Source: Methanobacteriota archaeon
GTDB lineage: Archaea; Thermoplasmatota; Thermoplasmata; Methanomassiliicoccales; UBA472
Direction: 5' to 3'
DNA: 47,862 nt
Assembly: GCA_021372335.1 (NCBI GenBank)
Contig: JAJFUR010000002.1
Location: 1-47,862 of the forward strand
Shown: piece after piece, positions 1,176 to 15,576 of the stretch
Layout: each line of letters opens with the position of its first letter
Numbering within the stretch: the stretch's first letter is position 1
Notes under the pieces: generated by a model
The model's input: the letters and a program-made list of their open reading frames with translations, nothing else
Database searches by the model: none
What the model was told of the DNA's origin: nothing
Position numbers and translations under genes: made by a program

Positions 1176-2255
1176 ATGTGTGGTACCACTGCCTTCTTCT
1201 ATAACGATGGTCTGCTTCGGTATCAGTTCGGTCCGGAGCATCCCTACCAGCCCATTCGGTTCCAGTTGATAAGGGATACCTTGCGGGACATGGACGTGTT
1301 CAACGACCGCCTCGTGTACGTGGAGCCCCCAGCGGCAACGGAGGAGGACCTGAGGGAGGTCCATGACCCCGCGCTCATCGCGTACGTGAAGGAGCTGAGC
1401 GCCATAGGAAGCGGGTACCTTGACCTGGGGGACACCCCAGTGTGCCAAGGGCTGTACGAGGGGGCCTTGGCGGTGGTCGGCGCCACCCTGCACGGCGCAG
1501 AGAGCATCGCCCGGGGGGAGTATGACCATGTCATGACCCCGGGCGGTGGGCTACATCATGCCCGCAGGGACAAGGCAGCTGGCTTCAGCGTGTTCAATGA
1601 CCTTGCCATCGCCGCGAGGCGTCTGCAGCGGAGGTATGGGTATGAGAGGATCGCCATCATTGACATCGACGGCCATCACGGGGATGGTACCCAGTCGATC
1701 TTCAATGGGGAGCGGGTCCTGACCATTTCCTTCCATCGCTATGGCGCCGGGTTCTACCCGGGCACGGGAGCGGTCACCGACATTGGGGAGGGGGAGGGGG
1801 AGGGATACGCCATAAACGTCCCGCTCCCCCGCTGCACTCCCGACGACGTCTACGTTCCCACGTACGAGAGGGTGGTCACGGAGGCCTTGGACGCCTATCG
1901 CCCTGAGATCATCATCCACCAGTTCGGCACGGACGCGCACTACAGCGATCAGCTTGTGGGGATGGGGCTCACCACCAGGGCGTACGAGAAGGTGGCGGAG
2001 ATAACCCATCGCCTGGCGCATGAGCATTGCGACGGCCGGTACCTGGTGACCGGCGGAGGTGGGTATTCGATCGACGCCGCCCGGCGGATATGGAGCATCG
2101 CCGTGTGCACCGTCTCTGGCTCCTTCCCCTTGAACCCGGAGGGCCTGCACCTGCTACGCGACTCCGGGCTGAACCGTAAATGGAAGGTGCAGCAGGAGGA
2201 GTTCCACAAACGCCTTGACTATCTATTCGAAGAGGTCATTCCCAAGATCTGCTGA
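1176..2255 (+). CDS. Histone deacetylase-superfamily hydrolase (AcuC-like)
   Basis: This 359-residue protein has the full arginase/deacetylase-fold signature. It opens with FFYNDGLLRYQFGPEHPYQP, has the paired-histidine motif GGGLHHA, the zinc-binding DIDGHHGDGTQ, then FHRYGAGFYPGTG, a second zinc aspartate in FGTDAHYSDQL, and the tyrosine-bearing TGGGGY. All ligand residues expected for a Zn-dependent amidohydrolase are present, so it should be active. Family members remove acetyl or acyl groups from lysines of proteins (for example acyl-CoA synthetase in the acu system), from polyamines, or from other amines. The substrate here is unknown. The 3' end overlaps the convergent CARF gene by 20 bases. 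Confidence 0.9.
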   Translation: MCGTTAFFYNDGLLRYQFGPEHPYQPIRFQLIRDTLRDMDVFNDRLVYVEPPAATEEDLREVHDPALIAYVKELSAIGSGYLDLGDTPVCQGLYEGALAVVGATLHGAESIARGEYDHVMTPGGGLHHARRDKAAGFSVFNDLAIAARRLQRRYGYERIAIIDIDGHHGDGTQSIFNGERVLTISFHRYGAGFYPGTGAVTDIGEGEGEGYAINVPLPRCTPDDVYVPTYERVVTEALDAYRPEIIIHQFGTDAHYSDQLVGMGLTTRAYEKVAEITHRLAHEHCDGRYLVTGGGGYSIDAARRIWSIAVCTVSGSFPLNPEGLHLLRDSGLNRKWKVQQEEFHKRLDYLFEEVIPKIC

Positions 2256-2871
2256 TGCCCTCCATCCTCTGAAGCCAATCCAGGCAGGCCCTTCCCCTGC
2301 CCGTCAAGGCCAGTGCCGGGGCTTTTCCAGCCACCGTGGGCTCTATGAGGTCCATCTCCCTCATCCTGCGCATCAGAATGGCGAGGGGGTGACGACCGTC
2401 GAGCTCCTGCACCGTCGCCAGGGGGAAAGGCCATTTGGTTCGGAGCAGGGCATCGGCGATCTCTCTGGGAAGGGCTTCCTCGACCCCCCTGGCCGCCAGC
2501 AACGGGAATCTACACGCCTTCGTTTCGTAGCAGCACACCTCGGCCCCGATCGCCAGGGCCGCCAGCATGGCCGTGTCGCTCAACAGCTTCCTCCCTCCGG
2601 TGATATCGAAGCACACGCTCCATCCCTTCCAGCACTGGCCCTGCACCCGCTGCACGATGCGCATTGCGGCCGCTGCCAGGTCCTGAGGGTCCACCGTAAG
2701 CGCCTCATACCTCACCCCCAGCCTATCCAGGAAAGCCGTGGCTGCGCTCTCGTCCGCTGTTGTTTCCACCACCAGGATGAGATGGTCGTGGGGAAGGGAC
2801 CGCAGGCCGGGAACGATCTCGCTGACGTTCGCGCCGAAGGTGCTGACCAGCAGGCCTTGTTGCCGGGCCAT
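2236..2871 (-). CDS. CARF-domain plus winged-helix protein, distal gene of the pair
   Basis: The protein has 211 residues from the ATG at 2871, whose A is shared with the upstream gene's stop (TGATG). A TTG one codon earlier is also possible. Residues 1-130 look like a Rossmann-type CARF domain, with the ligand-loop motif CFDITGGRKLLSD at 88-100. The C-terminal ~75 residues (HPLAILMRRMREMDLIEP...LTGRGRACL) look like a degenerate winged helix. Csa3/DUF6293-type regulators share this plan and bind cyclic oligoadenylate or related nucleotides. The first strand (GLLVSTFG) is the usual CARF start. No cas gene or repeat array is in the window, so the ligand and target are open. Confidence 0.65.
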   Translation of the reverse strand: MARQQGLLVSTFGANVSEIVPGLRSLPHDHLILVVETTADESAATAFLDRLGVRYEALTVDPQDLAAAAMRIVQRVQGQCWKGWSVCFDITGGRKLLSDTAMLAALAIGAEVCCYETKACRFPLLAARGVEEALPREIADALLRTKWPFPLATVQELDGRHPLAILMRRMREMDLIEPTVAGKAPALALTGRGRACLDWLQRMEGISRSWE

Positions 2872-3515
2872 CAATCCAGCTCCATCATCAGCTCGAGGGC
2901 GTCATCGACCGTGACGACCTTCCTGCGGCGGTCGGCGGCGTCCTCCGTGAGATGCAGGATGCCCTTCCCCTCGAGGACCTGGATGTGGTGATTGACGGTC
3001 GCCTTGTGCTTCCCTATGCCCTTAGCGATCTCCATCTGAGTCATCGGGCGCGAGCGGTTCTGCCATATGAAGGCGAGGACCTCCTTTTGAGCGGGGGTGA
3101 GCAGGTTTGAGTAATCCACCCTCAGGAGGGGCAACGGGATCTCCTGGTAAGTCTCATCGTGCACATAGACGGAGTTGAGCCCCTCCATGGCGCAGATCAA
3201 GAGGGCGGCCGCGCTCATCATCTTCGTCCCTCCAGCGATATTGAATACCGCGATCTCCTCGCCCTTCCTTCTGAGCGCGCGGACCTCCGTGCGCATCGCC
3301 CTCGCGGCCTGAAGGAGGTCGAAGGCGTCCGGTATGGCGACCCGCCTCAGCTCTATGCCCATGACGGTGCACACCGAGTCGACCTCGGCCAGGGCCTCCA
3401 ATGCGCGCGGGTGGTCGTTGCAGAAGACCACCGCCCTCTCCAGAGAGGGCGTCGACTCTACGGTAGGAAGCAGGGACCTAGCCCTGAAGCCCAATGTGCC
3501 TAGGATGGCGACCAT
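2871..3515 (-). CDS. CARF-domain plus winged-helix transcription regulator, proximal gene (Csa3/DUF6293-like)
   Basis: This 214-residue protein has an N-terminal CARF-like domain (about 1-133) with the loop motif FNIAGGTKMMSAAAL at 91-105. A clear winged helix-turn-helix follows (about 138-205): LLTPAQKEVLAFIW, then MTQMEIAKGIGKHKATVNHH as the recognition helix region, and a basic wing (DRRRKVVTV). The start is the ATG at 3515. It heads a two-gene operon translationally coupled to the second CARF gene. The 84-base gap to the protease gene at 3599 is AT-rich and could carry promoters for both directions. I infer a nucleotide-sensing DNA-binding regulator, probably acting with its partner and perhaps on this divergent promoter. 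Confidence 0.72.
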   Translation of the reverse strand: MVAILGTLGFRARSLLPTVESTPSLERAVVFCNDHPRALEALAEVDSVCTVMGIELRRVAIPDAFDLLQAARAMRTEVRALRRKGEEIAVFNIAGGTKMMSAAALLICAMEGLNSVYVHDETYQEIPLPLLRVDYSNLLTPAQKEVLAFIWQNRSRPMTQMEIAKGIGKHKATVNHHIQVLEGKGILHLTEDAADRRRKVVTVDDALELMMELD

Positions 3516-3573
3516 GATATCATCTCATCATCAGTGGAATGCTTTAATTCAATTTCCTAAGACGGTATTATTA

Positions 3574-3581
3574 TTTATGAT
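3574..3581 (+). promoter_or_regulatory. TATA box for the surface protease gene
   Basis: TTTATGAT sits in a run of A/T (3566-3589), centred about 22 bases before the GTG at 3599. This favours a very short or absent leader and supports the GTG start over the ATGs at 3650 and 3674. Confidence 0.4.
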
Positions 3582-3598
3582 ACTAATTTGAAGGTCCT

Positions 3599-6500
3599 GT
3601 GGTAAATCGAAATAGGTACGGACCCCTTACCTCTTCATCGAATAGAACGATGCGCCCCCCTCATCGCGCCCGCATGGTCGTAACGGCCTTTCTACTGACC
3701 CTGGCCCTTCTCCCCCTCGTCCACGTTCCTTCCTTCGAGGCCACCGCGCCCACCTTCATGACCTCCTCCATGAGCTATGAGTATCATTTTTCAGAGCCTT
3801 TCGTCGACCTGACGAGCGCGGACCGCCTCTTTCGGATCGAGGGCTCGGACCTTGACCCCCGGGGAGGGGTCCCGGCCCTGCCGGTATTCCCCGTGTCCCT
3901 GGCGGTCCCCCCCGGGCAAAGGCTCGTGGACCTGGTCATGAGCCATTCCGCCCCCCGGACGATCGAGCTGATGACCGCCTATCCGACCAATCCGGTCGAG
4001 ATGGCGGTGGATGGGGAAATGGCCTATTGCCATGAATATGCCGCGGAGCCGTGGGAGGCGACGGGAAGCCAGGTCCTTGAGGGGGTGGAGGTCGTAGGGC
4101 TTACCCTCCGGCCGTTGTATTGGAACGTGAGCACGGGGGCGCTGTCGTTCGTTGAGGATTTCACGCTCACCCTGACCCTGGAGGATGTCCGGCCCGATTA
4201 CGTCGGGGACATGGGGAGGGTGAGGGAGATGGTCGACAATCCGGAGGCGGTGCCGGACCTACTGCCCTTCGCAAGCTCGAACGTCCTCCCGCAGGGGGAG
4301 TACGACCATCTCATCATCACCAGCGAGGCCCTTTCCTCCCCGTTCGAGGAATTGGCGAGGTGGAAGGGGGAGAGGGAGGAACGGGGGGCCGTGTACGAGG
4401 GCGTTCGGAGCAAGGTCGTGACCTTGGAGGACATCCTCGCCACCAAGGCCCTTTGGGGCTCGCCATCCTCGCATCACGGCACCGGGAACGACACGCAGAC
4501 GGTGGTCCGCAACATGATCGTCGCCGCCCACAGAGAGTGGGGGGTGGACTACGTCCTCATTGGAGGGGACGATGACGTCGTCCCCGTCCGAATGGTCGCC
4601 GCGCCGATATTCGACACGGAATACCGGGAGCTGCCGGCCGACATCTACTACTCCGGTCTGGATGGGGACTGGGACGCGGACGGGGACGGGGTGTACGGGG
4701 AGCTGCTCAGCACCTTCCCGACGGTGCGGGACGAGGCGGACCTGCTTGCCGAGGTGTTCGTGGGCAGGGCCACGGTATCGACCGCCGAGGGCGCCTGGAA
4801 CTTCGTGAACAAGACGATGGCGTACGAGAGGGGGTACGTGAACCAATACGCGGACGACATTCTGCTGATAGGGGAGCGGCTCGACTCGGCCCCTACCTAC
4901 GGCGATGATTACAAGCAGGAGATCTTCGACGAGGTGCTTGCCGATGAGGGGCTGATATCCTCGACCCTTTACGCGAGGGACGGAACGTTCTCCGGCCCCG
5001 CCGTGCTGGCGGCGATGCGGTCGGGTGTGCATGTGATCAACCACATGGGCCATGGGAACTTCGGGTCCTTCGCCGGCGTAACCAGTCAGGACGTCCAGGG
5101 ATTGGACAATGCCCTTCCCTTCCTGCTCTACACCCAGGCCTGCATGGTCGCTGGCTTCGACGAGAGGGCGGATGACCCGGGGGACTGCATTGCGGAGGAG
5201 ATGGTGCAGGGCGAGGGGGGCGCGGTGGCCTTCATCGGCAACTCCCGCTATGGGTGGTATGCCAGGGGCAGCACGTACGGCTCCTCGCAGCGGTTCGACA
5301 AGGCCTTCTTCAGCCAGGTCTATGACGGGGACGTTCCCGAGCTTGGACGCGCCCTCGCCTATTCGAAGGAATCGCTGTACACGTCCGCCCTCTCCGCAGG
5401 CACCATGCGCTGGGTGTACCTGGAGCTGAACCTCCTTGGGGACCCGGAGACAAGCGTCCATCTGTCCGAACGGGCGACCCATGACCTGGAGGTGCGGGGG
5501 ATCGAGGTGGGGCGGTGCATAGCGGGCGAGCGATGCCAGGTCACCGTCGAGGTGCGGAACGTGGGCCAGTCCATAGACGAGGGGGCGCTGCGCCTCTTGG
5601 TCGATGGGGAGACCCTGGGGAACGCGCCCGTGTCCCTTGCGCCCGGCGAGGGCATGACGGTGATGATGGGATGGACGCCCTCCGGCGCCGGGCGCCACGA
5701 GCTGGTGGCGGTTGTGGCGTGCGAGGGGGACGAGAGCCCGGAGAACGATCGCAGCGACCTTGAGGTGATGGTGGACCGCCGGGTCACGTCGGATGAGCAC
5801 TGGAGCGGGGAGGTGGTCCTCTCGAGCGGCCTATTGATAGCTGAGGGCGTGACCGTGACCGCCCGGGACTGCTACATTCTGTTGCGGTCCTCCCCGATGT
5901 TGTACAGGCTGACCGTGGACGGGGCCTTCCTCATGGACAACTGCACCTATGGCGGATCGCCGTCGGTCCTGGATTCCGCAGGGGGCAAGCTGGCAATGAC
6001 CGAGTGCCTGATGGAGGGGGCATCGCTGTCCCTTGCCCAAGGAGCCCGCTTTGGCTCGCTCTCCCTTCGGAACACCAGCATGGTCGGCGGCAGCGGGTGG
6101 CAGATCGAAGGTGCCAACGTGGTGATGACCAACTCATCGGCAGTGGCCCAGGAAGGGGAATGGCTCATCTCCGATTCCACGGTGGCCATCGACCTCGTGG
6201 ATGGGGCCGGGGGGCACGGCCTCCACCTCGTGAATGCGAGCGGGACCGTTTCACGGCTCTCGTGGACCGGGGGGTCCTCCGGGCTGATAGTGGAGCGCTG
6301 CAGCGGGATGACCCTCCACGATCTGAGCTTCGTCGGCAACGCTATGGATATGGACATAGAGGGGGATGTGACGGCCCATTTCATCCATGACCTGAGGAAC
6401 GTGACGCTGACCGCGGGCCCGTTGGCCGTCCTGCATGGACTGGATGGAACAACGTTAACGGGAGCGTTCGCCTCCCTGTACCTCGTGGAATGCCACGCCG

Positions 6501-8776
6501 TCGTGGTGAGGGGGCAGCGATTCCAAGGGGCCGGGACCGGGCTGGCGCTGATCGAGAGCCATGGGATAGAGGTCATAGGGAATGCCATTGAGAACTGCAC
6601 GACGGGGATCCTTGCGATCGGGTCGCAGGGCACCGTCTGGGCGAACGACCTCCTCGACAACGACGCGCAGGTCCATCAGGCCCGGTCCGACCTGACCTTC
6701 GATCGGGGGTATCCCAGAGGCGGCAACCATTGGTCGGACATGCGCGGTCTCGATCAAATGTCGGGGGACGGGCAGGATGCCATGGGATGCGACGGCATCT
6801 TCGATTCGCCTTACGAAGGGGGCGCCTATGACCGGTATCCGAAGGTCGGAAGGTGCAGCTATCTCTATGACAGCCCGAACGCTTCGTTCATCATCAATGC
6901 CGTCCCGGCCAACAGGGTGGACCCTGTGGTCCTGACCCATTGCGGGGGGAGCGGCATCGGCATAGCGAACTGGACCTGGGACCTGGGCGACGGAAACACG
7001 GCCTACGGGGACCGAGCGGTCCATACCTACCTCTCCCTGGGAACGGCCCCTGTTCTCCTGACGGTCACCGACCACAAGGGATCGACGGCCACGGCCACGG
7101 GGGAGGTCCTGGTCGTCAACCTGCTTCCCGATTGCGGCTTCATCGTCTCCCCCTCCCGGCCGGCGCCAGGGGAAGCTGTCCGCTTCGAGGACCGTTCCTC
7201 GGACCGGGACGGGAGCATATCCGCCTGGCGATGGGATTTCGGGGATGGGGGGACCTCCCTCGAACCGGAGCCCGAGCATACGTACCAGGAAGAGGGGGAA
7301 TACCTGGTGTCCTTGACCGTGATGGATGCTGAGGGTGGAAGCGCCAGCACTACCCAGGCGTTGGCGGTGGGCAACGACCCCCCGGTGGCGACCTTCGTCT
7401 CGGCCCCCAGCCTTATCACCGTCCTCACGGACGTCCGCTTCACCTCCCAGAGCCATGATCCGGACGGAGAGGTCGTTTCATGGGCCTGGAGCTTCGGGGA
7501 CGGCGCCACCGGCACCGGCAGCTCGGTCGTGCACTGCTATTCCTCGCTGGGCACGTTCCAGGTGACCCTCGAGGTCTGGGACGAGCACGGCGCTTCGTCC
7601 TCCGTTACTGCTTCCCTCACAGTGCGGAACTCAAGGCCGGTGGCTGACTTCGAGGCGCCGGGCTCGGTGCTGAGCCTGGAGGAGGTACATTTCATGGACC
7701 TCTCCTACGACCTTGACGGCCGGGTCCTAGGCTGGAGCTGGGATTTCGGGGATGGTGGGACGTCCACCCTCGCCTCGCCTGCACATATATACAAGGCCCC
7801 GGGGGACTACGCGGTCACCCTGACGGTCATGGATGACCGGCGGGCATCCTCCGTCAAGATGGCGCCAGTGAAGGTACTCAACCGCCTCCCGCAGGTCGCC
7901 ATCGAAGGGCCGTCCGGGGAGCATTGGTCCCTGGAGGAGATGGAGTTCCATGCGATGGCCTCGGACATGGATGGGACGGTCGCCTCCTTCCACTGGGACA
8001 TGGGGGACGGCAGGGAACTGGAAGGGCAGACGGTGTGCCATGCGTACCTATGCCCGGGCGAGTACGTGGTGACCCTCACCTGTGAGGATGACGCAGGGGG
8101 CGTGGCCAACGCCACCATCGTCGTCCAGGTCCAGAACCTGATCCCCCTGGTGGGAGCGACGTACGAGCGATCGTTGGACCATCCATTGGAACTGATGTTC
8201 CAGAGCGGCGCGGAGGATCTTGATGGAAGCATCGCTTCCTATGACTGGCGCTTTGGGGACGGGGGATCCTCGGCGGAGGCTGCCCCCGCGCATCGCTACC
8301 GTCGGGCTGGGGATTACACCGTCGTGCTCAACGTGACCGACGACCGTGGGGCCTGGGCCGTGGCATTCGCCAACGTGACAGTGGTGGAAGGGAGCCTATT
8401 CCTGACAGGAATGACCTGCGAGAAGGCCGACGGGGAATGGGTGCTCGAGGGAACGATGGTGAACGAAGGCCCGTCCCTTGCCTACGTGACTTTCTACGTC
8501 AACGTCACCGATGGACGCGCCCCCCTCCTTTTGAGAATAGAATATCGATTGGAACCTGGCGAACGGAGGGCGGTCGAGGTCGGGCTGGGAGCGCATGGCG
8601 AGGCCACCGTGAACGCCACGCTAGGTTGCGAGGAAGGGTTCGATTCGGATATCCGTGATAACATCTGGGGAGCGCGGATCTCCGACCCTGGGCTGAACGT
8701 CCCGATGGGCTATGTCGTCGTGCCCCTGATCGGCGCGATCATCGCCGCGGCGGTGGTCATCGTCAGAAGGAGATGA
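3599..8776 (+). CDS. Giant secreted C25-type (gingipain-like) protease with beta-helix and six PKD domains
   Basis: The protein has 1725 residues from the GTG; an ATG at 3650 would give 1708. A signal peptide core lies at about 26-48. Residues ~230-620 resemble peptidase family C25: DYVLIGGDDDVVPVR, the catalytic-type histidine in NHMGHGN (His485) and a cysteine in YTQACMVAGF (Cys515), followed by a GGAVAFIGNSRYGWY strand. Next come a CARDB-like domain (~626-720), a right-handed beta-helix/NosD-type region (~725-1080) ending in a GGNHWSD segment, and six PKD domains (~1093-1598), each with WxxGDG or WDFGDG signatures. The C-terminus has a membrane helix (about 1700-1722) and basic RRR, so it is anchored in the cytoplasmic membrane and faces outward. 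A role in surface protein processing or nutrition is inferred. Confidence 0.85.
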   Translation: MVNRNRYGPLTSSSNRTMRPPHRARMVVTAFLLTLALLPLVHVPSFEATAPTFMTSSMSYEYHFSEPFVDLTSADRLFRIEGSDLDPRGGVPALPVFPVSLAVPPGQRLVDLVMSHSAPRTIELMTAYPTNPVEMAVDGEMAYCHEYAAEPWEATGSQVLEGVEVVGLTLRPLYWNVSTGALSFVEDFTLTLTLEDVRPDYVGDMGRVREMVDNPEAVPDLLPFASSNVLPQGEYDHLIITSEALSSPFEELARWKGEREERGAVYEGVRSKVVTLEDILATKALWGSPSSHHGTGNDTQTVVRNMIVAAHREWGVDYVLIGGDDDVVPVRMVAAPIFDTEYRELPADIYYSGLDGDWDADGDGVYGELLSTFPTVRDEADLLAEVFVGRATVSTAEGAWNFVNKTMAYERGYVNQYADDILLIGERLDSAPTYGDDYKQEIFDEVLADEGLISSTLYARDGTFSGPAVLAAMRSGVHVINHMGHGNFGSFAGVTSQDVQGLDNALPFLLYTQACMVAGFDERADDPGDCIAEEMVQGEGGAVAFIGNSRYGWYARGSTYGSSQRFDKAFFSQVYDGDVPELGRALAYSKESLYTSALSAGTMRWVYLELNLLGDPETSVHLSERATHDLEVRGIEVGRCIAGERCQVTVEVRNVGQSIDEGALRLLVDGETLGNAPVSLAPGEGMTVMMGWTPSGAGRHELVAVVACEGDESPENDRSDLEVMVDRRVTSDEHWSGEVVLSSGLLIAEGVTVTARDCYILLRSSPMLYRLTVDGAFLMDNCTYGGSPSVLDSAGGKLAMTECLMEGASLSLAQGARFGSLSLRNTSMVGGSGWQIEGANVVMTNSSAVAQEGEWLISDSTVAIDLVDGAGGHGLHLVNASGTVSRLSWTGGSSGLIVERCSGMTLHDLSFVGNAMDMDIEGDVTAHFIHDLRNVTLTAGPLAVLHGLDGTTLTGAFASLYLVECHAVVVRGQRFQGAGTGLALIESHGIEVIGNAIENCTTGILAIGSQGTVWANDLLDNDAQVHQARSDLTFDRGYPRGGNHWSDMRGLDQMSGDGQDAMGCDGIFDSPYEGGAYDRYPKVGRCSYLYDSPNASFIINAVPANRVDPVVLTHCGGSGIGIANWTWDLGDGNTAYGDRAVHTYLSLGTAPVLLTVTDHKGSTATATGEVLVVNLLPDCGFIVSPSRPAPGEAVRFEDRSSDRDGSISAWRWDFGDGGTSLEPEPEHTYQEEGEYLVSLTVMDAEGGSASTTQALAVGNDPPVATFVSAPSLITVLTDVRFTSQSHDPDGEVVSWAWSFGDGATGTGSSVVHCYSSLGTFQVTLEVWDEHGASSSVTASLTVRNSRPVADFEAPGSVLSLEEVHFMDLSYDLDGRVLGWSWDFGDGGTSTLASPAHIYKAPGDYAVTLTVMDDRRASSVKMAPVKVLNRLPQVAIEGPSGEHWSLEEMEFHAMASDMDGTVASFHWDMGDGRELEGQTVCHAYLCPGEYVVTLTCEDDAGGVANATIVVQVQNLIPLVGATYERSLDHPLELMFQSGAEDLDGSIASYDWRFGDGGSSAEAAPAHRYRRAGDYTVVLNVTDDRGAWAVAFANVTVVEGSLFLTGMTCEKADGEWVLEGTMVNEGPSLAYVTFYVNVTDGRAPLLLRIEYRLEPGERRAVEVGLGAHGEATVNATLGCEEGFDSDIRDNIWGARISDPGLNVPMGYVVVPLIGAIIAAAVVIVRRR

Positions 8777-8782
8777 GGGGAG

Positions 8783-8855
8783 CGCCCTGGTCGGGATTTG
8801 AACCCGAGTCGAAGCCTCGACAGGGCTTCATGATAGGCCGCTACACTACCAGGGC
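8783..8855 (-). tRNA. tRNA-Asp (anticodon GTC)
   Basis: On the minus strand the acceptor GCCCTGG (from 8855) pairs with CCAGGGC (8784-8790), with discriminator G at 8783. The anticodon stem AAGCC/GGCTT encloses the loop CTGTCGA, giving anticodon GTC. The T stem TCGGG/CCCGA encloses TTTGAAT. There is no intron, and CCA is not encoded. The gene is tail-to-tail with the protease gene, 6 bases past its stop. An AspRS gene lies 12 kb away. Confidence 0.95.
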
Positions 8856-8883
8856 CTCAACGACCTTTCCCCCTATCGAATCA

Positions 8884-8893
8884 TAATATTTAA
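8884..8893 (-). promoter_or_regulatory. TATA box for tRNA-Asp
   Basis: The minus strand reads TTAAATATTA about 33 bases before the tRNA 5' end, suitable for a short precursor leader. Confidence 0.55.
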
Positions 8894-9003
8894 CCCTTAG
8901 GAGATGGGCGCGCTGGCCCTGGAGCCCTCGGAGGACGGAGGCGCCCCCGGCAGCCCATTGTGCCCGGGGCAGGCACGGTGGTCCTCGGATGTCTCCCTCC
9001 CAA

Positions 9004-9011
9004 AGTATTAA
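9004..9011 (+). promoter_or_regulatory. TATA box for the CBS-ParB gene
   Basis: AGTATTAA would start transcription near 9033. That lies after the upstream GTG at 9021 but before GGGGGATC and the ATG at 9042, so it supports 9042 as the start. Confidence 0.5.
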
Positions 9012-9041
9012 TCGGAGCCGGTGGTTAGATCGGGGGATCAG

Positions 9042-9842
9042 ATGGCCGAACGGAAGCCGAGGGTGGAGGACTATATGATTCGCGAGGTGGTCCACGTGCC
9101 CGTCACCTACACCGTCAAGCAGGCTGTGGACGCCCTCATAGCCAGTGAGTTCCATGGGATGCCTGTGACCGAGGATGGGCGGCTCGTGGGGTTCATCACC
9201 GCCAAGGAGCTGCTGCGCCATTACGGCACCCCCGACAGGCCGATCTCCGAGATCATCCGTAAGGGAACGGTGACGGTCAATCCCAAGATGGACCTTGACG
9301 ACGTGGCCCGCATCCTCTTCCGGTACGGCCTCAGGAACGTCCCGGTAATAGACGAGAACGGCATGCTGCTGGGCATCATTTCCAATCTTGACATCGTCCG
9401 CTCCCACATCGAGAGGGCCACGCCCAACAAGGTGGCCATGATCAAGAACTTCCTGGAAGCGAAGCACGGCATCTCCATCATGGTGCGCCGCCGCATCGTG
9501 CCGGTGGAGGCCCTCCGGCCGACCCAGAAGGAGGTGTACGCAGACGAGCTCCTGGGGCGGAAGGAGGAGATCAAGCGCGGCCTGGTCGAACCGATCATAG
9601 TCATCCAGAAGAACGACCATTACCTCCTGGTCGATGGGCATCACCGGGCGCTGGCCTCCAAGCAGATGGGGGTCAAGCAGTTCTCGGCCTTCGTCCTGGA
9701 GCCGTCCAGGGACGTGGAGCTGGGTATGGAGCGCAGTGCCGAGGAGATGGGATTGCGCACCTTGGACGACGTGAAGATCATCGAGGGGGCGCACCATCCC
9801 CTGGTGGAGATCACCACCAGGCTGCTTAAGAGCGAGCAGTGA
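9042..9842 (+). CDS. CBS-domain pair fused to ParB/Srx-fold domain
   Basis: The protein has 266 residues from the ATG at 9042, chosen because GGGGGATC precedes it and the predicted transcript begins after the alternative GTG at 9021. Two CBS motifs occupy about 10-125: MIREVVHVPVTYTVKQAVDAL...GMPVTEDGRLVGFIT, and a second with VPVIDENGMLLGII. The C-terminal ~110 residues carry a ParB/sulfiredoxin-type fold with IVPVEALRPTQ and the signature VDGHHRALA. CBS pairs sense adenosyl nucleotides. The DGHHR-type domain occurs in ParB partition proteins and in archaeal ADP-dependent free-serine kinase, so either DNA binding or a small-molecule kinase is possible. It is convergent with ppsA, 7 bases apart. 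Confidence 0.78.
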   Translation: MAERKPRVEDYMIREVVHVPVTYTVKQAVDALIASEFHGMPVTEDGRLVGFITAKELLRHYGTPDRPISEIIRKGTVTVNPKMDLDDVARILFRYGLRNVPVIDENGMLLGIISNLDIVRSHIERATPNKVAMIKNFLEAKHGISIMVRRRIVPVEALRPTQKEVYADELLGRKEEIKRGLVEPIIVIQKNDHYLLVDGHHRALASKQMGVKQFSAFVLEPSRDVELGMERSAEEMGLRTLDDVKIIEGAHHPLVEITTRLLKSEQ

Positions 9843-9849
9843 GGATGGC

Positions 9850-12159
9850 CTACCTCAACGTCTTGCGCGCCGCCTCGAGCAGGATGCGCTGCTCGGCGGA
9901 GGCGATTATGCCCAGGGTGCTGATCACGGTGTCCGGGTTGAGGCTGATGGAGTCTATGCCGGCCTTCACCAGGAACTCGGTGAACTCCGGATAGACCGAT
10001 GGGGCTTGCCCGCATATGCCGACGGTACAGCCCTTGCGGTGGGCCGCCTCGATGAGCATGTTGATGGCCCGCTTGATCGCCTCGTTCCTCTCATCGAAGT
10101 AGCCCATCTTTCCCAGGATATCCGAGTCGCGGTCCGCGCCCATGGTCAGTTGGGTGAGGTCGTTCGAGCCGATGCTGAACCCGTCGCACCACTCCGCGAA
10201 CTCCTCGGCCATGAAGATGTTGCATGGGATCTCGGCCATGAGGTACAGCCTGAAGTCACGGTTGCGCTCCAGACCCACCTCCCTCATCATCTCCGTGATC
10301 CTGCGGACCTCGTCGATGGTGCGGACGAAGGGGAGCATCACGTGCAGGTTCTTCAGTCCCATCTCCTCGCGCACCTTCTTAATGGCCTTCAGCTCCAGCT
10401 TGAACGCCTCCCGGTAGGAATCGGAGACGTAGCGCGAGCACCCCCTCCACCCGATCATAGGGTTCTCCTCGTGGGGCTCGAACTTCTCCCCGCCCTCCAT
10501 GTCCCGGTACTCGTTGGTCTTGAAGTCCGAGGTGCGCAGGATGACCGGGCGCGGATAGAACGCCTTGGCCACCATGGCGATGCCCTCGGAGAGCTTGTCC
10601 ACCAGGAACTTGGACTCACCCTTTTCGATGAGCGCGCATGGATGCTCCTGGATGTAGGAGGTGAACAGGAACTCGATGCGCATGAGGCCCACTCCCTGCA
10701 CTGGCAGCTTTGCGACCTCCTCGGCCTTCTGCGGGATCGCAAGGTTGACGTATACCTTCGTCCCGGTGACCTGGGCGGGCGCCACTATCGGCACAGCGAG
10801 CTTCGCCTCCTCCTTCTTGGGCTCGGCGGTCCCCTCATAGACCACGCCCATGCTGCCATCCACGGTCACCATGTCCCCGTCCTTCAGCACCTGGGTGGCA
10901 TGCGTGGCGCCCACGATGCATGGGATCCCGAGCTCGCGGGCCACGATGGCCGCGTGGCAGGTCATGCCGCCCTCGTCGGTGACGATGGCCGCGGCCCTGG
11001 TCATGGCAGGGACCATGTCCGGGGAGGTCATCGTGGTGACGAGGACGTCCCCCTTCTTCACAATGTCCAGGTTCATCTCCTCGGAGACGGTGCGGACAGG
11101 GCCCCCCGCGACGCCGGGGGAGGCCCCCAACCCTTTGACGAGGACCTTGGCGCTCTTGGCAAGGCCCTGATCGGTCGGCCTCCCATTGCCCTTCCCACCG
11201 GGGGAGGACAATGTGGTCACCGGCCTGGCCTGGACCACATAGATGACCCGGTCCTCGATGCACCACTCAATGTCCATTGGGCGGTTGTAATGGGCCTCGA
11301 TGTTGCGTCCGATCTCCGCCAGGGCCAATATCTGCTCGTCCGTCATCTTCTGGACGCTGCTGAGCTCGTCGGGCACGTCGGCCCTTACGCATTCGCCGCC
11401 CTTTCCCCTGACCAGCTTCCAGGTCTGCTTGGCTATGCGCTTGCTCAGGATCTTGCTGTGGAACTTGTCCACGACATACGTGTCTGGCGTGACCTTGCCT
11501 CCGACCAGGGCCTCGCCGAGGCCGTAGCCGGCCTCGATTATGATGTGGGGCATCTCCGAGTTGGGGTCTACCGTGAACATGATACCCGATATCTCGGAAT
11601 TGATCATCTTCTGGACGACGACCGCCAGCTTTACCTTGGAGTGCTCGAAGCCCTTGGTAATGCGATAGTAGATGGCGCGGGGGGTGAACAGCGAGGACCA
11701 GCACCGGCGGACCTTATCCAACAGGTCCTCTGGGCTCTCGACGTTCAGATAGGTGTCCTGCTGTCCGGCAAAGCTTGCGGTAGGCAGGTCCTCCGCGGTG
11801 GCGCTAGAGCGGACGGCCACCAGGCCGGGTCGCTTACCCTTGAAGAGGGCCTTGTAGGAGGCCAGGATCTCCTCCTTGAGATCCGAGGGGATCTCAACGG
11901 TGTCGAAGAGGTCCCTGATCCTCTGGGAGGTGTCCTGCAGGGACGCCTCGGAGCTCGCATCCACCTTGGCCAGCAGCTCAAATATGGTGTCCTTGATCCC
12001 ACTGTTCTCCAAAAAGTAATCGTATGCCGCGGTGGTCAGAACGAATCCGGGAGGGACATTGAAGCCGGCCGCCACCAGCTCTCCGAGGTTTGCTCCCTTG
12101 CCACCGGCGATGTCGATGTCGTTCTTGCCTAGGTCAGATATGTTCACTATCCTTTTCAT
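9850..12159 (-). CDS. ppsA: Phosphoenolpyruvate synthase
   Basis: PEP synthase (pyruvate, water dikinase) converts pyruvate, ATP and water to PEP, AMP and phosphate for gluconeogenesis in the cytoplasm. From the ATG at 12159 the protein has 769 residues and begins MKRIVNISDLGKNDIDIAGG, the usual family start. A GTG at 12204 would add 15 residues. The N-terminal ATP-grasp domain has VRSSATAEDLPTASFAGQQ. The central swivelling domain has the phosphohistidine in TDEGGMTCHAAIVARELG. The C-terminal TIM barrel has NDLTQLTMGADRD and a CGQAPS loop holding the catalytic cysteine. It is divergent from porGDAB, which makes the pyruvate it uses. Confidence 0.96.
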   Translation of the reverse strand: MKRIVNISDLGKNDIDIAGGKGANLGELVAAGFNVPPGFVLTTAAYDYFLENSGIKDTIFELLAKVDASSEASLQDTSQRIRDLFDTVEIPSDLKEEILASYKALFKGKRPGLVAVRSSATAEDLPTASFAGQQDTYLNVESPEDLLDKVRRCWSSLFTPRAIYYRITKGFEHSKVKLAVVVQKMINSEISGIMFTVDPNSEMPHIIIEAGYGLGEALVGGKVTPDTYVVDKFHSKILSKRIAKQTWKLVRGKGGECVRADVPDELSSVQKMTDEQILALAEIGRNIEAHYNRPMDIEWCIEDRVIYVVQARPVTTLSSPGGKGNGRPTDQGLAKSAKVLVKGLGASPGVAGGPVRTVSEEMNLDIVKKGDVLVTTMTSPDMVPAMTRAAAIVTDEGGMTCHAAIVARELGIPCIVGATHATQVLKDGDMVTVDGSMGVVYEGTAEPKKEEAKLAVPIVAPAQVTGTKVYVNLAIPQKAEEVAKLPVQGVGLMRIEFLFTSYIQEHPCALIEKGESKFLVDKLSEGIAMVAKAFYPRPVILRTSDFKTNEYRDMEGGEKFEPHEENPMIGWRGCSRYVSDSYREAFKLELKAIKKVREEMGLKNLHVMLPFVRTIDEVRRITEMMREVGLERNRDFRLYLMAEIPCNIFMAEEFAEWCDGFSIGSNDLTQLTMGADRDSDILGKMGYFDERNEAIKRAINMLIEAAHRKGCTVGICGQAPSVYPEFTEFLVKAGIDSISLNPDTVISTLGIIASAEQRILLEAARKTLR

Positions 12160-12257
12160 GGGCCGCTTCACCACTTTATGAACGTTCGATGCAGGCAAGT
12201 TCACGGGGCCGATGGCCCTTCAATGCCCTAACCCAGGTGGAAGATAGGTAAGGAGCG

Positions 12258-12268
12258 TATTAATTTTT
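12258..12268 (-). promoter_or_regulatory. TATA box for ppsA
   Basis: On the minus strand AAAATTAATAC would start transcription near 12236, leaving about 75 bases of leader before the ATG at 12159. Confidence 0.45.
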
Positions 12269-12275
12269 CTAAACC

Positions 12276-12308
12276 ATGATAGGGCGTGATCGTTCGGACG
12301 CCTATCAT
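12276..12308. repeat. Inverted repeat abutting the ppsA promoter
   Basis: ATGATAGGGCGT (12276-12287) pairs with ACGCCTATCAT (12298-12308) with one bulged G. It lies just upstream of the ppsA TATA element, where an archaeal activator would bind. No known operator consensus is recognised. Confidence 0.5.
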
Positions 12309-12590
12309 TTTCGTGGATCGGGACGGAGATGGGCCAGCGGTCACTGGGACCGTGTGGATCAAGAGAAATGGAATGTCGAACGCGCCGAGGGGACGTCGAA
12401 AGGGTATGGTTCCTGTGATTCCTATTGGAATTTAATTCGAAGCGGAAAGGGGTAGCAGGATGGTTATATTATAGCCCTTGATGAGATTGAATTTGCAATT
12501 GATGTTACCGCAAGTATCATGCGCAGCTCGTATTTTCGAAGAATTTACCCTGTATATTCATGGGTTTCGTAAACAATTTTCTGAAATTAT

Positions 12591-12600
12591 TTTATATTAT
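12591..12600 (+). promoter_or_regulatory. TATA box and ribosome site fixing the porG start
   Basis: TTTATATTAT predicts initiation near 12621. GAGGAG at 12625-12630 is then 5 bases before GTG 12636, which decides that start over GTG 12621. Confidence 0.55.
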
Positions 12601-12635
12601 GACAATTTAAAGGGTTTACCGTGCGAGGAGATGCT

Positions 12636-13196
12636 GTGAGCACCATTGAGATAAGATGGCATGGAAGAGGTGGCCAAGGGGTCGTCACGGCGAACGAGAT
12701 CTTAGCTGGTGCTGCCCTCAGGGAGGGCAAGTTCATCAAGGCCTTCCCGGAGTTCGGGCCAGAGCGTATGGGCGCGCCCATCCGCGCTTTCGCCCGGATC
12801 TCGGACAGGCCCATCACTGTGCACAGCCAGGTGTATTTCCCTGACGTCGTGTTGATCATCGACCCCACGCTCCTTAAGGCTGGCAAGGTGACGGATGGCC
12901 TCAAGGAGGGAGGGGGCGTCATCGCCAACTATCCGGATGACAACGCCAAGCTGATGCGCGCTGTGGGGCGGAGCGAGAACGTTCATGCGGTGAACGCGAC
13001 CAAGATCGCCGTCGAGGAGATCGGCCGACCGATGACGAACACCGCCATGCTTGGAGCGTTGGTCAAGGTCACCAACGTGGTCAACCTAGATACGATCATC
13101 GAGGAGATGAGGGACAAGATGTCCGGAAAGCTTGGCAAGGACGCGGTGGAGAGGAACATCAAGGCCATAAGGCGGGCCTATGAGGAGGTGCAGTGA
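12636..13196 (+). CDS. porG: Pyruvate:ferredoxin oxidoreductase, gamma subunit
   Basis: From GTG 12636 the protein has 186 residues and begins MSTIEIRWHGRGGQGVVTAN. The glycine-rich GRGGQGVVTA motif and the EFGPERMGAPIRAFARIS segment mark the gamma domain of 2-oxoacid:ferredoxin oxidoreductases, which contributes the CoA-binding region. It is the first gene of a tightly packed G-D-A-B set, the same order as archaeal por operons. The complex interconverts pyruvate plus CoA with acetyl-CoA plus CO2, using ferredoxin. A 2-oxoisovalerate-type specificity cannot be excluded. It ends directly against the delta subunit start. Confidence 0.92.
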   Translation: MSTIEIRWHGRGGQGVVTANEILAGAALREGKFIKAFPEFGPERMGAPIRAFARISDRPITVHSQVYFPDVVLIIDPTLLKAGKVTDGLKEGGGVIANYPDDNAKLMRAVGRSENVHAVNATKIAVEEIGRPMTNTAMLGALVKVTNVVNLDTIIEEMRDKMSGKLGKDAVERNIKAIRRAYEEVQ

Positions 13197-13481
13197 ATGG
13201 CGGACGAGGGATCGAGCTCATTACCCTTAGGCGGGATGATAATCGAGCCTGGCAATTCCAGGAGGTACAGGACGGGGGAGTGGCGCTCGCAGCGGCCCGA
13301 GGTGGACAAGGAAAAATGCACCAATTGCCTGACGTGCTGGATCTACTGCCCGGATAACAGCGTTCTGGTGGAGAATGAGAAGATGATGGGGTTCAAGTAT
13401 TCGCATTGCAAAGGATGCGGCATCTGCGCCAACCAGTGCCCGGCCAAGGCCATAACGATGAGGGAGGAGGGAGTGGAATGA
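13197..13481 (+). CDS. porD: Pyruvate:ferredoxin oxidoreductase, delta subunit (2x[4Fe-4S])
   Basis: The 94-residue ferredoxin-like subunit has two CxxCxxCxxxCP-type clusters: CTNCLTCWIYCP and CKGCGICANQCP. Each supplies ligands for one of two [4Fe-4S] clusters that pass electrons to external ferredoxin. The ATG follows the porG stop without a gap, with GGAGGTG just upstream (13185-13191). The N-terminal ~35 residues (GGMIIEPGNSRRYRTGEWRS) are the typical delta-subunit lead that packs on the other chains. It overlaps the alpha start by ATGA. Confidence 0.94.
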   Translation: MADEGSSSLPLGGMIIEPGNSRRYRTGEWRSQRPEVDKEKCTNCLTCWIYCPDNSVLVENEKMMGFKYSHCKGCGICANQCPAKAITMREEGVE

Positions 13482-14641
13482 GCAAGCCCATCGCCGTTAA
13501 CGGGGACACGGCCATTGCCATGGCCTGGAAACAGATCAACCCGGACGTGGTGGCCGCCTACCCAATCACCCCTCAGACCATCATCGTGGAGGCGTACTCG
13601 GACTACGTGGCCGACGGCCTGGTGGACACGGAGTACATATGCGCGGAGTCGGAGCACAGCGCCCTGAGCATCTGCGTCGGCTCGTCCGCGGCCGGGGCCC
13701 GCGTGGCCACGGCCACGGCCTCCGCCGGGCTCGCGTTCATGTGGGAGATGCTGTATGTCTCCGCCTCCATGAGGACCCCGATCGTCATGGCGGTGGCCAA
13801 TCGAACCCTGAGCGGCCCCATCAACATCCACTGCGACCACAGCGATGCCATGGGAGCCCGGGACTCCGGATGGCTACAGATCTTCGGGGAGAACGTGCAG
13901 GAGGCCTATGACAATACCCTGATGGCCTTCCGCATAGCGGAGAACATGAAGGTCCGTCTGCCCATAATGACCTGCCTCGATGGGTTCATCATCACCCACG
14001 CCTTGGAACGGTTCGAGCCCCTTGAGGACGAGAAGGCGAAGGCCTTCGTCGGGCCATACCAACCGGTGAGGCCACTGCTGGACGTCAAGAGTCCCACGAC
14101 CTATGGGCCCATAGCCATGCCCGAGTACTACTATGAGATAAAGTACCAGCTGGTGACCGCCATGGCGAACGCCATGGATGTCGCTCGCCAGGTGATGGCC
14201 GAGTACGGAGAGCTCACCGGCCGCAGGTATGATCTGGTCGAGGGCTATCGCACCGAGGACGCCGAGTATCTGATGGTGGCCATGGGCTCCACCGCGGGCA
14301 CCGTCCGCTTTGTGGTGGACCAGCTCAGGGCGGAGGGGAAGAAGGTGGGGGCGGTGAAGGTCCGCCTGTTCCGCCCGTTCCCTACCGAGGACCTGGTCGC
14401 GCTCTTGAGGGGAAAGAAGGCTGTGGCGGTGCTGGACAGGGCCATGAGCCCCGGGACAGGCGCCCCGCTTTACATGGACGTCGTGGAGGCGGCGTCCCAG
14501 ATCGGGAGTCCGCCGCGCATAAGCAACTATATCTATGGACTTGGAGGAAGGGACATCATGCCAGAGCAGTTGAGCTCGGTGTTCGGGGAGATCATCGAGG
14601 GCAGGGGAGAGCGCGTCAACTACCTGGGGGTGAGGAAATGA
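13478..14641 (+). CDS. porA: Pyruvate:ferredoxin oxidoreductase, alpha subunit
   Basis: The protein has 387 residues from the ATG at 13478, which overlaps the porD stop (ATGA). It begins MSKPIAVNGDTAIAMAWKQI, then AYPITPQT and ICAESEHSALSICVGSSAAGARV, the typical alpha-chain pyrimidine-binding fold for thiamine diphosphate. ALSGPI-like NRTLSGPINIHCDHSD and ENVQEAYD also match the family. A C-terminal transketolase-like domain (from about 260) has VAMGSTAGTVR and VKVRLFRPFP. An open frame continues upstream of this ATG, but those residues repeat the porD region in another frame and lack family similarity. Confidence 0.94.
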   Translation: MSKPIAVNGDTAIAMAWKQINPDVVAAYPITPQTIIVEAYSDYVADGLVDTEYICAESEHSALSICVGSSAAGARVATATASAGLAFMWEMLYVSASMRTPIVMAVANRTLSGPINIHCDHSDAMGARDSGWLQIFGENVQEAYDNTLMAFRIAENMKVRLPIMTCLDGFIITHALERFEPLEDEKAKAFVGPYQPVRPLLDVKSPTTYGPIAMPEYYYEIKYQLVTAMANAMDVARQVMAEYGELTGRRYDLVEGYRTEDAEYLMVAMGSTAGTVRFVVDQLRAEGKKVGAVKVRLFRPFPTEDLVALLRGKKAVAVLDRAMSPGTGAPLYMDVVEAASQIGSPPRISNYIYGLGGRDIMPEQLSSVFGEIIEGRGERVNYLGVRK

Positions 14642-15576
14642 ACCTACGCGAACTCACCCATACCGAGGAGAGGCTGTGCGAGGGGCATCGCCTCTGCGCC
14701 GGGTGCGCGGAGCCTATCATCGCCCGCCAGGTGCTGATGGCGACCGACAAGCCCGTGGTGGTCGCCAACGCCACCGGGTGCTTCGAGGTGTCCACCACCA
14801 TCTATCCGTTCACCGCTTGGAACGTGCCATGGATCCATACCGCCTTTGAGAACGCCCCGGCCACGATCAGTGGGGTGGAGGCTGCCTACAACTCCCTGAA
14901 GCGCCAGGGCAAGCTCGAGGGAGAGATCAAGTTCGTGGCCTTCGGCGGGGACGGGGCGACCTATGACATTGGCCTGCAGTCCTTGTCCGGCGCCATAGAG
15001 CGCGGGCATGATTTCCTGTATGTCTGCTTCAACAACGAAGCGTACATGAACACCGGGATCCAGAGGAGCGGGGCCACCCAGAAGGGCGCGTCGACCACCA
15101 CCTGTCCGGCCGGGAGCTGCATTCCGGGCAAGCGGGAGTTCCCTAAGGACCTCACCCGCATCATAATCGCCCATGACATACCCTATGCCGCTCAGGCATC
15201 GCCGCACAACTGGAAGGACCTCATCGAAAAGTCCCGCAAGGGCATCGAGACCCATGGACCGGCCTTCATCAACGTGGTCTCCCCCTGCCCCCGGGGATGG
15301 AGGCATGACAGCTCCCAGACCATCGCCATCTCCAAGCTGGCGGTGGAAACGTGCGTCTGGCCCCTCTACGAGTACGAGAACGGCGAATGGAGGCTGACCG
15401 GGGAGTCGCTGCGCATCGCCGAAGGGTCTAAGGAGAAGCGGCCGGTGTCGGAATGGTTGAGTTCCCAGGGCCGCTTCAAGCACCTGACCAAGGGCAAGTT
15501 CACCTCCGTGGCGGACGAGATCCAGGCCAATGTGGACAAGAAGTGGGGCGAACTGCTCAAGCTCAGCAAGATGTGA
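14638..15576 (+). CDS. porB: Pyruvate:ferredoxin oxidoreductase, beta subunit
   Basis: The 312-residue thiamine-diphosphate and [4Fe-4S] subunit has the cysteine pair in CAGCAEP, ATGCFEVSTTIYPFTAW, the Mg-TPP loop GGDGATYDIG followed by NNEAYMNTG, and a later cysteine in VSPCPRGW. ATGCxEV and TIYPxTAW are typical of pyruvate-type beta chains. Translation is coupled to porA by an ATGA overlap. It ends the operon; T-rich runs follow within 40 bases. It should work with the divergent PEP synthase in carbon assimilation from acetyl-CoA. Confidence 0.94.
   Translation: MNLRELTHTEERLCEGHRLCAGCAEPIIARQVLMATDKPVVVANATGCFEVSTTIYPFTAWNVPWIHTAFENAPATISGVEAAYNSLKRQGKLEGEIKFVAFGGDGATYDIGLQSLSGAIERGHDFLYVCFNNEAYMNTGIQRSGATQKGASTTTCPAGSCIPGKREFPKDLTRIIIAHDIPYAAQASPHNWKDLIEKSRKGIETHGPAFINVVSPCPRGWRHDSSQTIAISKLAVETCVWPLYEYENGEWRLTGESLRIAEGSKEKRPVSEWLSSQGRFKHLTKGKFTSVADEIQANVDKKWGELLKLSKM

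Follow-up and report, generated by a model that had tools for sequence, protein, structure and literature searches.

CARF-winged-helix proteins of the Csa3 type bind cA4 and are tied to the regulation of cas genes in Sulfolobales (PMC8844856, PMC8699464), and the ligand of Csa3 in genomes that are Cas10-less or CRISPR-less is a stated open question (PMC8699464). A stretch of 47,862 nt from a Methanomassiliicoccales genome, which was analysed at its whole length and is termed the window, raises a similar question. It carries two overlapping genes, A and B, that encode proteins of this type. What does the pair regulate, and what might it sense? No CRISPR-like repeat family was detected in the window, no cas genes were recognised among the neighbours of A and B, and the sole Cas1 match of the genome is on another contig, in agreement with a preliminary description of the locus as devoid of cas genes and arrays.

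Two proteins of the CARF3 clade

The features of the locus are listed in Table 1. The stop codon of A overlaps the start of B in the sequence TGATG, and B has 212 aa if read from a TTG or 211 aa if read from an ATG. CARF-type loops are located at aa 91-100 of A (FNIAGGTKMM) and at aa 88-97 of B (CFDITGGRKL). A profile search, proposed earlier as a check, gave similarities far above chance for both proteins. The whole of A is covered by the PADLOC CARF3 model PDLC01853 (E 1.4e-85). B is matched by PDLC01856 (E 7e-17), as are its orthologues (E up to 1.6e-93). Pfam matches to A are MarR_2 (2.7e-9, above the cut-off) and Cas_APE2256 (7e-7); B has a profile match to the SSO2081 ring nuclease (8.7e-5).

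Table 1. Positions in the window of genes A and B, the predicted operator and adjacent genes.
Feature	Positions	Strand	Basis
Gene A: CARF3-type CARF (~1-132) and MarR-like winged helix (~139-205), 214 aa	2871..3515	-	PDLC01853, MarR_2, model
Gene B: CARF3-type CARF and diverged winged helix, 211-212 aa	2236..2874	-	PDLC01856, model
Predicted operator ATTAGTATCATAAATAATAATACCGTCTTA: GTATnA direct repeat with 20-bp period, and inverted half-site	3558..3587	-	Gibbs motif, PWM
Divergent C25-type peptidase with NosD/beta-helix and PKD repeats	3599..8776	+	Peptidase_C25 2.6e-53, PKD
Histone-deacetylase-type (PF00850) gene, convergent, 20-bp 3′ overlap with B	1176..2255	+	PF00850 4e-83

The AlphaFold model of A (pLDDT 89) displays a Rossmann-type CARF domain followed by a winged helix (wHTH), and that of B (pLDDT 78) has CARF strands at aa 7-115 and a wHTH at aa 137-208. 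In Foldseek searches, Csa3 (2wte) is the PDB structure most like A in fold (E 1.9e-9); for B, matches with E between 1e-6 and 1e-5 are Cam1, a ring nuclease and Csa3. Open reading frames, loops, profile matches and models thus all agree with two CARF-winged-helix proteins encoded by overlapping genes, as was first described. With their matches to CARF models and their C-terminal winged helices, both A and B are members of the CARF superfamily and belong to its CARF3 (Csa3-like) clade. The full-length matches of A and B orthologues to the PADLOC-DB CARF3 clusters PDLC01853 and PDLC01856 show that the two families are already in a CARF census, where neither is annotated with a function, an operator, a pairing or a target.

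Between families of archaea, the identity of A is 52% in the CARF domain and 42% in the linker and wHTH. The pocket motifs GTLG-aromatic-R, FNIAGGT[RK] and YVHDxT and the recognition helix HKATxNHH are kept in 34 to 37 of 37 A orthologues. B keeps the motifs T.G, GG.K and LP. The N-terminal halves of the two proteins had been described as looking diverged; for B, however, divergence is found mostly in the winged helix, with a mean identity of merely 19% across families compared with 36% in the N-terminal half. The invariant helix and pocket of A, set against the fast-changing wHTH of B, suggest that the DNA sequence recognised by A is fixed and that the role of B is a different one.

Distribution of the pair and its predicted operator

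About 200 genomes of the archaeal class were surveyed, with the families of archaea labelled f1 and so on. Gene A is present in 40 of these, in seven families (f1, f6, f17, f21, f22, f25 and f29). B adjoins A or sits on a matching contig end in 38 of the 40, the remaining two being contig-end cuts, and no genome among the ~200 has B without A. The junctions are mostly 4-bp start-stop overlaps, otherwise short gaps. A and B co-occur strictly and are translationally coupled, and they may form a heterodimer. The pair is dispensable, as it is absent from three of six congeners; viral copies of A were looked for and none were found.

The usual sources of a CARF ligand were searched for in the pair-bearing genomes. 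Cas10 is absent from all 40, with six of the ~200 genomes of the class having it, and mCpol was likewise found in none of the 40. There is also no convincing CD-NTase in these genomes; SMODS matches are weak, only two are barely over the cut-off, and they lie in frames of 440-475 aa that, from their size, are probably CCA-adding enzymes. Several of the 40 genomes are incomplete, such that single absences prove little and it is the absence across all 40 that carries the argument. Cas1 is found in 4 of the 40 genomes (one match is weak), compared with 58 of the 160 without the pair. Thus the pair is conserved mostly without Cas1, and it does not lie in complete type III cas loci, a location that would have spoken against the preliminary description. 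As Cas10, mCpol and convincing CD-NTases were not detected in the 40 genomes, the pair is a genuine orphan without a detectable usual source of CARF ligand. The lack of detectable Cas10 also makes it very unlikely that the ligand is a Cas10 cyclic oligoadenylate.

Twenty-one regions upstream of A, with family f25 excluded, were used in Gibbs sampling. The resulting motif is 30 bp long and has the form GTATnA-N14-GTATnA, with an inverted half-site preceding the second repeat. Its information content is 24.8 bits, compared with 12.4-13.2 bits in local shuffles, and every promoter but one has it at -72 to -79 relative to the A start. When position weight matrices (PWMs) were trained without a given lineage, the same site was the top match in 18 of 18 held-out promoters. 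The site in the window, at -72 to -43 from the A start and overlapping a TATA-like stretch, was regained by a model trained on the other families, and none of 500 simulated promoters was as good. Its PWM score is 35.7, with no more than 14.6 anywhere else in the window. The f25 promoters do not have this motif; they display another conserved block, GAAgaAacTTCaTATCGTC, ~41-50 bp upstream of A (L076, L078-L083, L090, L106 and L107), which is perhaps a changed operator.

The gene divergent from A was first described as a large surface protease gene, and it is confirmed as a C25-type peptidase; its start is likely the ATG at 3650, as inferred from the signal peptide. It shares the intergenic region with A and may be co-regulated from there. 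However, the peptidase neighbours A in this genus alone, where it is found in every congener having A, and it was rejected as a general target of the pair. The operator is present in families with other divergent genes, and thus is older than the peptidase neighbourhood. Recurrent neighbours elsewhere are a HAD hydrolase (f6, f17 and f21), a metallo-beta-lactamase (f6 and f25) and JAB and bPH genes (f25); none is common to all families, and conserved neighbours were set aside as a functional clue. The PF00850 gene is a conserved neighbour in f1 alone and is not part of the A/B system. Also conserved as neighbours in f1 are a gene at 9021-9842 (plus strand), which encodes a CBS-domain pair fused to a ParB/Srx-like region as judged by eye, and the adjoining PEP synthase gene at 9850-12204.

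An operator-like site before a type I-G cas operon

Contig C12 (L182) of the same genome carries a complete type I-G operon at 4815-14690, in the order Cas3g, Cas8g/Csx17, Cas7g/Csb1, Cas5-6g/Csb2 and Cas4-Cas1g, followed by a CRISPR array of at least seven repeats. Genome-wide scans for the operator were made with consensus patterns. A pattern from the gene A sites alone is found at 14 places in this genome, among them the cas3g promoter. The cas3g site, at 4740-4769 of L182, has a PWM score of 21.7. Relative to the cas3g start it spans -75 to -46, and it is oriented like the site at A. With a PWM from other families, the match at the cas promoter has p<0.001 in this genome and p = 0.003 at the homologous promoter of the congener G078, where the cas site is weak and its second repeat degenerate. 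A consensus search that allows up to three mismatches in six congeneric genomes (~10 Mb) gives exactly three A promoters and two cas promoters; it should be noted that this consensus had been relaxed until it covered the cas site, and the result thus speaks for specificity and is not an independent discovery. The same consensus has no match in three congeners that lack A, one of which has Cas1, and a reversed control also gave none.

In G156, a third relative with cas genes, there is no full site at the cas promoter, and a partial core, TTGATACCATCTTA, is found between divergent cas genes. In f6 genomes that lack cas genes no second operator was found genome-wide, only own-promoter sites, with the reservation that the pattern missed diverged own sites in 5 of 10 genomes. 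The term orphan, which the preliminary description had applied to the pair, holds for its position, with no type III or csa locus nearby. It does not hold for function in this genome if the predicted operator that precedes its type I-G cas genes is a genuine link, in trans, to CRISPR.

Two further sites were considered and rejected. One precedes a HAD phosphatase gene by 71 bp (contig C62 (L181), 5284-5309, minus strand); its PWM score is just 13.2, and it is not conserved before orthologues. HAD genes are also the divergent neighbours of A in three families, as given above. The other, at C46:2161 with a score of 18.4, is downstream of a CARF_m1-PIN module and has no gene start close downstream. 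Upstream of the cas operon on C12, at 743-2704, is a gene for a 653-aa protein with weak likeness to the AAA part of RtcR-type proteins, BrxL and CARF-Lon, possibly a Lon/AAA protease.

A proposed Csa3-like switch and its alternatives

The domains, the co-occurrence of A and B, the conservation of the operator, its presence at a cas promoter and the lack of detectable known cyclases are observed features. They are explained best, and in our judgement fairly probably, by a self-regulating Csa3-like switch that is here recruited to type I-G and is fed by a signal that does not come from Cas10. A and B would be co-expressed as Csa3-like CARF-wHTH transcription regulators. Sequence-specific binding of DNA and an invariant pocket of the nucleotide type would be provided by A. 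B would bring another CARF pocket and a winged helix that evolves fast, and would probably act as a partner subunit or a ligand modulator. The pair is predicted to bind the two GTATnA repeats, two helical turns apart, over its own TATA and start-site region. The placement of the operator over this region suggests repression, and autoregulation would most simply be by a repressor that is relieved by ligand; activation should also be considered. In this genus the pair would in addition control the type I-G cas operon in trans, from another contig. A small ligand bound across the CARF dimer would alter DNA binding.

A proposal that concerns the ligand and the effector, and that is compatible with the switch, is that A/B provide the transcriptional branch of a CARF stress pathway that does not need Cas10 and has CARF_m1-PIN as effector, and that damaged-RNA ends could be the ligand, as for RtcR. 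It is tentative and somewhat unlikely. CARF_m1-PIN (PDLC01973) is a CARF module with a nuclease, present in this genome outside the window as a split CARF_m1 and PIN-nuclease gene pair (contig C46 (L141), ~3054-4600, minus strand). In four f21 genomes A, B, CARF_m1 and PIN are consecutive, and in one f22 genome CARF_m1 and PIN follow A-B with one intervening gene. The PIN protein is found in 21 of the 40 genomes with A compared with 27 of the 160 without it, but this co-occurrence is confounded by phylogeny. Moreover the pair occurs in f25, where PIN is missing, and PIN occurs in many genomes that lack the pair. Relatives of the PIN protein, found in 48 of the ~200 genomes, are mostly away from A/B. 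No conserved operator site is found at unlinked CARF_m1-PIN promoters, where there is one isolated match (score 10.5, in L139). RtcR (CARF-AAA-HTH) is similar to A/B as a CARF-controlled transcription regulator and works without Cas10 (PMC7790460, PMC9650030). Its CARF domain binds tRNA fragments with cyclic phosphate ends, and these activate it (PMC7790460). However RtcR combines a divergent CARF with a sigma-54 AAA domain; A/B lack an AAA domain and carry winged helices.

A broader form of this proposal, rather doubtful to us, has A/B as an obligate heteromeric CARF factor with a ligand that does not come from Cas10, CD-NTase or mCpol. Together with the split CARF_m1-PIN it would form a class-wide stress or defence pathway free of type III systems, with control of type I-G in this genus as a secondary role.

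The cas promoter site falls on an AT-rich stretch that is TATA-like, and its copy in G078 is weak; thus the site might be a mere resemblance to a TATA box, with A/B regulating itself alone. We consider this rather unlikely. The six genomes contain many TATA promoters, and nothing else is found within three mismatches. The outer GTAT...CGTTTG positions are unlike a TATA box, and the offset and orientation match those of the gene A site.

It is distinctly unlikely that A/B are ordinary Csa3 whose ligand, a cyclic oligoadenylate or other cyclic nucleotide, comes from an enzyme of a family other than those searched. The fold is Csa3-like, and the TxGFDE loop of Csa3 (PMC8844856) is kept in many B orthologues, which retain more of Csa3 motif 1 than does B of the window. 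Against this are the lack of Cas10, mCpol and a convincing CD-NTase, and also the sequence of A. The Csa3 motifs for cA4, G9-F10-(N/D)11-x-x-F14 and G96-phi-R98 (PMC8844856), are not found complete in A: G9, an aromatic residue at 10, G96 and [RK]98 are kept, with R at 11, S at 14 and T at 97, and R and mostly P replace D/N11 and E12. The NCBIfam Csa3 model TIGR01884 gives 36.3 bits for A, below its cut-off of 60.2, and no match for B.

In domain order and fold A/B are the same as Csa3 of type I-A (e.g., Sso1445, PDB 2wte/6w11). Csa3 regulates cas genes and has a conserved promoter element (PMC8844856, PMC8699464); A/B have a predicted operator at the type I-G cas promoters of two genomes. A/B differ from Csa3 in being an obligate two-gene pair, in loop residues and in the association with type I-G rather than I-A, and the direct-repeat operator differs from the 18-bp CAPPa palindrome of Csa3. 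The solved Csa3 bound putative sites non-specifically in vitro (PMC8699464). The position in or next to cas loci by which Csa3 is recognised is not that of A/B, 36 of the 40 genomes being without Cas1; Csa3 unlinked to cas loci is allowed in the literature (PMC8699464).

The least probable reading is that the main target of the pair is the gene divergent from it, which in this genus encodes the C25 surface peptidase, and that the pair is unrelated to CRISPR. It fits the operator inside the shared intergenic region and the divergent peptidase of all congeners with A. Against it, the operator is kept in families whose divergent gene encodes a HAD hydrolase or something else and in G156, without a peptidase gene upstream of A, and the same operator is found at the cas promoter.

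The literature search gave no paper that names both Csa3 and Methanomassiliicoccales, and none of the titles and abstracts on Csa3 and type I-G reports that a CARF-type regulator controls type I-G from a distance to the cas genes. The locus provides a conserved regulator pair, a defined 30-bp predicted operator and a concrete candidate CRISPR target. If the switch is as proposed, A/B would represent CARF-type control of type I-G CRISPR-Cas from a distant locus. Through A/B, the question of what archaeal CARF regulators sense without Cas10 (PMC8699464) becomes directly testable.
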